From: Hyphomicrobiales bacterium
Lineage (GTDB): Bacteria; Pseudomonadota; Alphaproteobacteria; Rhizobiales; Rhizobiaceae
Length of the DNA: 64,000 nucleotides
NCBI GenBank assembly: GCA_900466475.1
Contig: UBMI01000021.1
Span: 1-64,000 of the forward strand
Reading direction: 5' to 3'
The notes under the pieces were generated by a model. The model ran no database searches, was not told where the DNA came from, and was given only the letters and a program-made list of their open reading frames with translations. The stretch's first letter is position 1. Each line of letters opens with the position of its first letter. The translations under genes were made by a program, and so were the position numbers. Of this stretch, positions 49,439-50,791 are shown piece after piece.

Positions 49439-50791
49439 TCAGGCCCGTTCGATCTCTGCCCCGAGGCTTTTCATCAGATCCATGAACTGCGGAAAGCGGG
49501 CCGCAATCATGCTGCTGTCATCGATACCGACAGGATGCTCCGAAGCCAATCCCATGACAAGGAAACTCATGGCGACGCGATGGTCGAGATGCGTAGAGAC
49601 CGGCACAAGGCCTGCATTGCCGAGCCCCTTTCCGTCCGGCCGGCCGGTGACCGCAAGCCAGTCCAGGCCTTCCTCGCAATCGACGCCGTTGAGCTTAAGC
49701 CCTTCCGCAATGATTGAGAGCCGCTCCGGCTCGTTGATCCGCAGTTCCTGCAGCCCATTCATGACCGTCCGGCCCTTGGCGAAGCTGGCGGCGACAGCAA
49801 GAACAGGATAGTCGTCCATCATCGATGGCGTCCGCTTTGCTGGAACGGTAGTTCCGGTCAGTTCGGAATGACGCACCCGCAAATCCGCCACATCCTCGCC
49901 GCCCGAAACCCGCGGATTGAGGATCTCGATATCCGCACGCATCTCCCGCAGTGTCAGGATCAGTGCTGCCCGCGTCGGGTTCATTAGTACATTGGAAATG
50001 ACGATGTCGGAGCCTGGCACCAGCAAAGCCGCCACCAGCGGGAAAGCGGCGGAGGAGGGATCGCCCGGTACATCGATCTTCTGGCCGATCAGCCTGCCGC
50101 GTCCCTGCAGTCGAACCGTCCGCGTGCCCTCCTTGTCGGTCTCAGCGGACAGTTCTGCGCCGAAGCCGGCCAACATCTTTTCCGTATGGTCACGCGTGAT
50201 CGCCGGTTCGATAACCGTCGTCACACCCGGAATGTTGAGGCCGGCCAGCAGTATCGCCGACTTCGCCTGCGCGGAGGCGAGGGGCAGGGTGTGGTGGATC
50301 GGGGATGGCGTTTCCGGCCCACGCAGCATAACCGGCAGGCGATCGCCCTCAACTGACTTCACCTGAACACCCATGCGGCGTAACGGATCAAGCACGCGGC
50401 CCATCGGCTGCCGGGAAAGCGAGGCGTCGCCGGTAAAGACGGTGTCGAAATCATACGCGCCGGCAAGGCCCATGATCAGGCGTACGGCAGTGCCGGAACT
50501 GCCAAAATCGAGCGGAATCTCCGGCGCAAGCAATGCGCCGTTGCCTGTCCCGTTGATGATCCACGTGTCGCCCTCCTTGCGGATCACGGCACCCATGGCC
50601 TGCATCACCTTCGAAATATTGAGCACATCTTCGCCTTCGAGGAGCCCGGCAATACGCGTTTCGCCCGATGCCAGTCCGCCGAGTATCAGTGCGCGATGCG
50701 AGATCGATCTGTCGCCGGGAATACGGACGGTTCCGGAAAGCCCGGAGGATTTGCGGGCGATGGTCGGCTTCGATGCAGAACCCTGCGACAT
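49439..50791 (-). CDS. aroA: 3-phosphoshikimate 1-carboxyvinyltransferase (EPSP synthase), class II-like, with altered active-site residues
   Basis: This 450-residue protein aligns by eye without gaps over at least residues 1-357 with the recalled class II rhizobial enzyme ([63 protein letters not shown]). It should join PEP to shikimate-3-phosphate in the shikimate pathway. Three positions that are basic in that enzyme differ: Lys28 is Arg (GDRSISHR), Arg128 is Gln (SRQPMGRV) and Lys353 is Asn (RINEPERLS). Residue 100 is Gly (GSSGTA). Arg357 and the THLDHR motif are retained. The locus is the standard aroA-cmk-rpsA neighbourhood. Whether it is fully active cannot be decided by reading. Confidence 0.93.

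Follow-up and report, generated by a model that had tools for sequence, protein, structure and literature searches.

The window, meaning the whole 64,000-nucleotide stretch of DNA analyzed here, carries a full-length aroA gene in what had been predicted to be its native locus, and the order of genes found there (TIGR02300-like gene, aroA, paiB, cmk, and rpsA) confirms that placement (Table 1). The names of the four neighbors are those that we take their sequences to indicate. EPSP synthase, the enzyme expected of an aroA gene, is the enzyme blocked by glyphosate. The window protein scores 385.5 bits against the NCBIfam model TIGR01356 (aroA; cutoff, 287.25) and aligns without gaps over residues 1 to 448 with the CP4 EPSP synthase (EPSPS; PDB 2gg4/2ggd), bearing out the claim that its numbering runs in step with that of the class II rhizobial enzyme; residue positions are given in CP4 numbering throughout. 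The genome is that of a soil bacterium of the genus Rhizobium; the nearest named loci are those of Rhizobium sp. BK316 (86%), a Rhizobiales isolate (84%), and Rhizobium sp. BK418 (82%). An AlphaFold model, built on an alignment of 24 sequences, is of moderate quality (mean pLDDT, 73.9; pTM, 0.66) and weaker in its N-terminal half; its best PDB match is unliganded CP4 EPSPS (2gg4; TM, 0.84), and as a prediction it bears on the EPSPS fold only. On the family score, the CP4 alignment, the native locus, and the fold, the gene is assigned as a class II AroA/EPSP synthase ortholog. Its frame is open for 450 codons in both genomes of the species, the window genome (G000) and G136, and a broken frame was found in neither.

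Table 1. The aroA locus and its presumed neighbors (positions in the window; "group" is the set of 14 Rhizobium class II genes described in the text, and "dead" copies are those so labeled from catalytic changes)
Feature	Coordinates	Strand	Remarks
Class II aroA	49439..50791	(-)	450 codons, full-length frame; K28R, R128Q, K353N, S355P, D356E
aroA codon 28	50708..50710	(-)	AGA, Arg; Lys in 60/60 class-II-only relatives; position relative to the frame start, 50791
aroA codon 128	50408..50410	(-)	CAG, Gln; Arg in 60/60 class-II-only relatives
aroA codon 353	49733..49735	(-)	AAC, Asn; Lys in 60/60 class-II-only relatives
paiB-like gene	48796..49437	(-)	1 base past aroA; whole in 9/14 group members, disrupted or missing in 5
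cmk (cytidylate kinase)	48147..48791	(-)	Next in the same gene run
rpsA (ribosomal protein S1)	46267..48009	(-)	Distal in the same gene run
TIGR02300-like acidic protein gene	51036..51446	(+)	Divergent; upstream neighbor of aroA in 14 group members and 8 dead copies of other genera

The original prediction held that three basic active-site residues are replaced in this copy, and the codons and the CP4 alignment agree on K28R, R128Q, and K353N as well as on the retention of R357 and of the HRVAMS segment, which reads DHRVAMS. Within the catalytic and binding set K28, R33, R128, D326, K353, E354, R357, and R405, three residues are thus altered and five kept. That list of replacements was correct but short. 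S355P must be added, along with seven changes (N98S, G285R, I325M, E327D, D356E, T431A, and S432R) among 93 positions near-invariant in 130 class II references, and the segment around K353, RINEPERL as compared with RVKESDRL, shows S355 and D356 altered together with the lysine. Comparison with 88 close class II sequences gave 206 invariant positions, of which 25 are altered in the window protein; a leave-one-out control among the same 88 gave a median of 0 and a maximum of 5, and removal of near-duplicates (86 sequences left) did not change this result. The sets of invariant or near-invariant positions used in this study differ in size (206, 93, 95, and 153) as their reference sets and cutoffs differ, and the reference sets behind the 93-, 95-, and 153-position counts contain some genes twice, from different collections.

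In the available text of a quantum-chemical study of the tobacco enzyme, Lys23 donates the proton in rate-limiting C-O cleavage, and Arg131 and Lys358 belong to the sets of residues that hold the phosphates of PEP and shikimate, respectively (PMC12256929). When mapped by motif, these residues correspond to K28, R128, and K353. Lys22 and Arg124 of the Escherichia coli enzyme are described, in the part of the source consulted, as belonging to the PEP/glyphosate site (PMC3411725).

Sequencing error can be ruled out as the origin of the changes, because another genome of the species, G136, whose protein is 97% identical, has the same residues at positions 28, 128, 353, and 355, with H32P in addition. 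Nor are the replacements common among relatives. Ten group members out of 14 retain K28, R128, and K353, which also rules out a change common to the whole group, and so do all 40 full-length Rhizobium copies outside it.

A search of the rest of the window genome for a second aroA, as the original prediction had proposed, found a class I gene (contig C9:5286-6554) that keeps all 15 catalytic and ligand residues checked. The Rhizobium class I enzyme shares the Pfam family (PF00275) and the presumed reaction of the window protein, to which it is 31 to 33% identical across two matched stretches; the same 15 residues are intact in 32 of 32 class I copies examined. Among 148 Rhizobium genomes, comprising the window genome and 147 others placed in one genus with it, class I matches were found in every genome and class II matches (E up to 1e-30) in 56. 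The other 92 had no class II match at that threshold, and absence of class II is therefore the commoner outcome within Rhizobium. Five loci of genomes lacking class II were inspected; aroA and paiB were cleanly absent together in G007, G062, G055, and G106, and in G001 aroA was cleanly absent with paiB retained.

Of the 56 class II genes, 14 make up the group of the window (its own gene and 13 at 78 to 97% identity), with the other 42 at 69 to 74%. The class I genes of the 13 other group genomes match that of the window genome at 94 to 100% identity. All 14 group members have aroA at the native locus beside cmk and rpsA. In five of them (G120, G163, G131, G081, and G124) paiB is deleted or broken next to a full-length aroA, with a frame change in G131 as judged from coordinates. 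Within the group, K28 and R128 are lost in G000, G136, and G014, and K353 is lost in those three and in G147. G014 and G147 have K353R in common, and each has also lost R405 (R405H and R405L, respectively), with S355R as a further change in G014. Outside the group, 40 of 42 class II genes are full length, and all of these have K28, R128, and K353. In G068 (C1:4584484-4585826; L217) and G157 (C23:64841-66162; L216), aroA is split between two frames, which may reflect either real decay or an assembly error.

How often the losses occurred within the group can be read in two ways. The partner of G014 in the best aroA tree is G147, in which K28 and R128 are kept, but support for the deep branches of the group is poor and monophyly of G000, G136, and G014 is compatible with the data (AU p, 0.31). 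Seven sites are common to G000 and G014 as compared with the other aligned sequences (G136 left out), and they do not fall in any stretch of raised similarity. K28R and R128Q in G000/G136 and in G014 may therefore derive from shared ancestry or from parallel change, both of which agree with the tree test.

Pairwise comparison of G000 with G136 (Nei-Gojobori) counted 13 nonsynonymous and 11 synonymous changes in class II aroA (omega, 0.42); the corresponding omega values were 0.27 for paiB, 0.048 for class I aroA, 0.045 for cmk, and 0 for rpsA. Across 14 Rhizobium genomes, omega was 0.154 for class II, 0.032 for class I, 0.072 for cmk, and 0.019 for rpsA, and on the G000/G136 branches of that comparison it was 0.384 for class II and 0.042 for class I. 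Codon models were fitted to 30 sequences by likelihood with code written for this analysis, whose one-ratio fit (-16039.85) agrees with that of IQ-TREE on the same data (-16039.84). They gave omega values of 0.087 for the background, 0.125 for the group, and 0.20 for branches with catalytic losses, each extra branch class improving the fit (2 delta lnL, 44 and 14). On the decayed branches, which include time before the losses, omega = 1 was rejected (lnL, -16133.3 versus -16010.7). The end branches to G000 and G136, which postdate the losses, had an omega of 0.366, and here omega = 1 was rejected only at a p of about 0.02 (lnL, -16012.05 versus -16009.43).

The original prediction left two options for this gene, a diverged working enzyme or a degenerate copy. 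The intact class I gene and the contrast between class II (0.384) and class I (0.042) on the G000/G136 branches favor the second. We consider it very likely, judging from sequence, that the window copy is the native class II aroA, redundant beside class I and catalytically disabled; both the loss of EPSP synthase activity and the role of class I as its reason are inferred. In the mechanism that we propose, class I would make EPSP and so ease selection on class II catalysis. K28, which would protonate the leaving phosphate, R128, which would contact the phosphate of PEP, and K353, which would contact that of shikimate, could then be replaced, leaving a product most likely with little or no EPSP synthase activity. 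Here and in other lineages, the frame has stayed whole as the active site decays.

Several observations run counter to a disabled copy. K28R is a conservative change, R33, D326, E354, R357, and R405 are kept, and residual activity is possible; moreover, an omega of 0.37 on the G000/G136 branches is still below 1, which is unexpected for a wholly unused gene. The same features, together with the full-length frame and the likeness of the AlphaFold model to unliganded CP4 EPSPS, could be taken to indicate a diverged but working EPSP synthase whose changes are compensated. Such an enzyme is improbable, however, when R128Q and K353N take away basic contacts to both phosphates, when changes affect 25 of 206 invariant positions, and when an intact class I gene is present in the genome. 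Related copies have gone further in the same direction, with H32P in G136, R405H and S355R in G014, and R405L in G147.

Similar losses were found across the family. In a sample of 247 Rhizobiaceae genomes, class II was found in 199 and class I in 50, scattered through 21 of 109 genera, a distribution that suggests transfer or repeated loss. Both classes were present in 11 genomes, class I only in 39, class II only in 188, and neither in 9 (Fisher p, 9e-27, uncorrected for kinship). Ten non-Rhizobium genomes with both classes were split evenly: in G208, G307, G315, G355, and G391 the class II copy has at least one of the eight catalytic residues changed (read by tblastn in G307 and G355), and in G192, G233, G290, G370, and G376 all eight are intact. 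By comparison, none of 60 class-II-only genomes (of 188), picked downward from a list of matches that does not include the weakest, had a catalytic change (5/10 versus 0/60; p, 2e-5, uncorrected for kinship). Rhizobium terricola (L119) carries a class II copy with K28T and a class I gene as well, and the pattern of catalytic loss extends in all to about seven lineages besides that of the window. At position 100, CP4 has Ala and the other class II copies shown have Gly; G100A is found in the dead copies of G315 and G307.

From these distributions, class I appears to permit the loss of class II catalysis and not to force it, since all 40 of the remaining full-length class II copies in Rhizobium keep K28, R128, and K353 beside class I. 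Those 40 copies count against class I as a sufficient cause. A further point against it is one dead class II copy, that of G416, in a genome where no class I gene was found.

That genome belongs to a genus identified as Hoeflea, in which the aroA of G412 is the same as that of Hoeflea marina (L102; zero-length branches). Hoeflea was searched as a whole (18 genomes), with length and score deciding the class and a residue check confirming it for the eight class I copies. The class II survey covered 17 of the 18 genomes, without G419, whose match is only partial. Four class II copies are dead; those of G208, G416, and G422 form a clade, and that of G413 is separate from it. A class I gene accompanies the dead copy in three of the four genomes; in the fourth, G416, none was found in an assembly that is 77% complete. 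In the five other class-I-bearing Hoeflea genomes, the class II copy keeps all eight residues. The dead copies have 17 to 30 of 95 near-invariant positions changed, with R33, K353, and E354 changed in all four and K28A or K28T in three, and their frames of 452 to 475 codons are free of stops. In three Hoeflea loci (L282, L279, and L281), an additional gene of about 215 codons, presumably of the DsbA-fold isomerase type, sits between aroA and paiB.

The Hoeflea clade allows constraint to be read after the loss of catalysis. The common ancestor of G208, G416, and G422 no longer had K28 (reconstruction, Ala 0.73 and Thr 0.27), and on the branches that follow omega was 0.229, with omega = 1 rejected (2 delta lnL, 199). 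No stops were found on these branches, compared with about 7.5 expected under neutrality. The branch to G413, the second dead Hoeflea lineage, had an omega of 0.165, a value that includes time before the loss. The dead Hoeflea copies are thus under purifying selection after catalytic loss, at a level of constraint lower than that of the rest of the tree (omega, 0.076; 2 delta lnL, 103). Because the loss recurs and the dead Hoeflea copies are full length and constrained, the term degenerate is probably right as to catalysis and yet does not equate to a neutral pseudogene.

Where constraint was lifted was examined in 13 dead copies, all of them full length and without stops. The dead label was assigned by catalytic changes, and only a comparison that excludes those positions escapes circularity. 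Ligand positions, transferred by motif from the contacts of the E. coli enzyme, were changed in 45 of 143 cells when those outside the dead-calling set were counted, compared with 200 of 1,742 cells for other near-invariant positions (rank test p, 2e-5). With ten lineage representatives, the counts were 28 of 110 and 134 of 1,340 (p, 3e-4); the Fisher and rank tests are uncorrected for kinship throughout. The greater change at ligand positions indicates that the active site was released and the remaining protein held more firmly. S247, which is not a dead-calling position, is replaced by Leu in 8 of the 13 dead copies, from several genera, and by Ala in one more, and positions 352, 355, and 432, in or near catalytic segments, are changed in 10, 11, and 11 copies, respectively.

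Positions 28, 353, 355, 432, 352, and 247 changed recurrently in separate lineages, as might be expected if an altered enolpyruvyl transferase had taken up a different acceptor. We regard such a new substrate as very improbable. The replacing residues differ by lineage at most of these positions (R, A, T, or G at 28; N, R, E, Q, G, or A at 353), contacts to PEP are lost too, and the neighboring genes, going by the names that we assume for them, are of a housekeeping type.

Two further readings are compatible with a redundant, catalytically disabled class II copy and concern the reason that the protein persists. In one, which is possible but doubtful, the dead protein is kept for a noncatalytic job that outlives catalysis, such as the binding of a partner or an old second role. 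Purifying selection after the ancestral loss of K28 in Hoeflea, the low omega of the G413 lineage, the intact Hoeflea frames, and the preferential release of ligand positions would all fit such a pseudoenzyme. The constraint in the species of the window is weak, however, with omega = 1 rejected only marginally, and in Hoeflea the dead branches show less constraint than the intact ones. The dead copies revealed neither a partner nor a new residue in common, class II is dispensable in Rhizobium, being absent from most genomes searched, and the cost of misfolding could yield the same pattern.

That cost is part of the other reading, which is likewise possible but less likely than not: stops and frameshifts in aroA would be polar on cmk and rpsA and a misfolded product would be costly, so that the frame and fold of an idle protein would be kept. 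aroA heads a run of genes, with paiB directly behind it and cmk and rpsA downstream, that is putatively a single unit. None of the 13 dead copies is broken, and eight dead copies from other genera lie at the same place. All eight have the TIGR02300-like gene upstream, and seven have cmk downstream; the exception is G416, whose contig ends within paiB, and in G355 cmk is about 2.4 kb further away. Core positions are held where ligand positions are lost, as would be expected if the fold mattered. On the other hand, the class II genes split between frames in G068 and G157 do not fit such avoidance, and the breakage of paiB in several genomes, including the frame change in G131, implies that disruption upstream of cmk is tolerated. 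A broader and more speculative proposal, which we think unlikely, is that class II AroA has a second, noncatalytic role in the Rhizobiaceae that is kept after class I takes over catalysis; dead EPSP synthases at this one locus would then have separate origins in Rhizobium, in four other genera, and, on two occasions, in Hoeflea.

Since the window gene passes the NCBIfam cutoff, family annotation would name it aroA and would attribute a glyphosate-tolerant class II EPSPS to the strain, which is predicted from sequence to rely probably on its class I EPSPS only. Through its recurrence, the loss is also a natural experiment that can show what remains constrained in an essential enzyme once its chemistry is not needed.

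Rhizobium strains with both EPSPS classes have been described before. In the available text of that report, the greatest glyphosate tolerance was not found in the two-copy strains, and the class II gene of such strains is hypothesized to lack a functional product (PMC7840833). A dead class II copy is one possible reason that two-copy strains need not be the most tolerant, a question left open in the portion of that report consulted. Its strains P28RR-XV, P32RR-XVIII, and P40RR-XXII resemble the window genome in having class I and class II genes together; their CP4-like copies, however, are said there to hold all critical domains, which the window copy does not, and the class II protein of P32RR-XVIII (L090) keeps K28, R128, and K353. 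No report of a dead EPSPS was found among the literature matches listed, including those for CP4 residue numbers. New with respect to that earlier work are a case in which catalytic residues are gone, its recurrence, its association with class I, and, in Hoeflea, constraint persisting after the loss.

Among characterized enzymes, CP4 EPSPS (Agrobacterium sp. CP4, class II; PDB 2gg4, 2gg6, and 2ggd) is the best structural match to the window protein and is 73% identical to it, differing in that the window protein lacks K28, R128, and K353. Pseudoenzymes generally keep the fold of their family and lose its catalytic residues. They are likewise subject to purifying selection after that loss, a property shared by the dead class II copies of Hoeflea.
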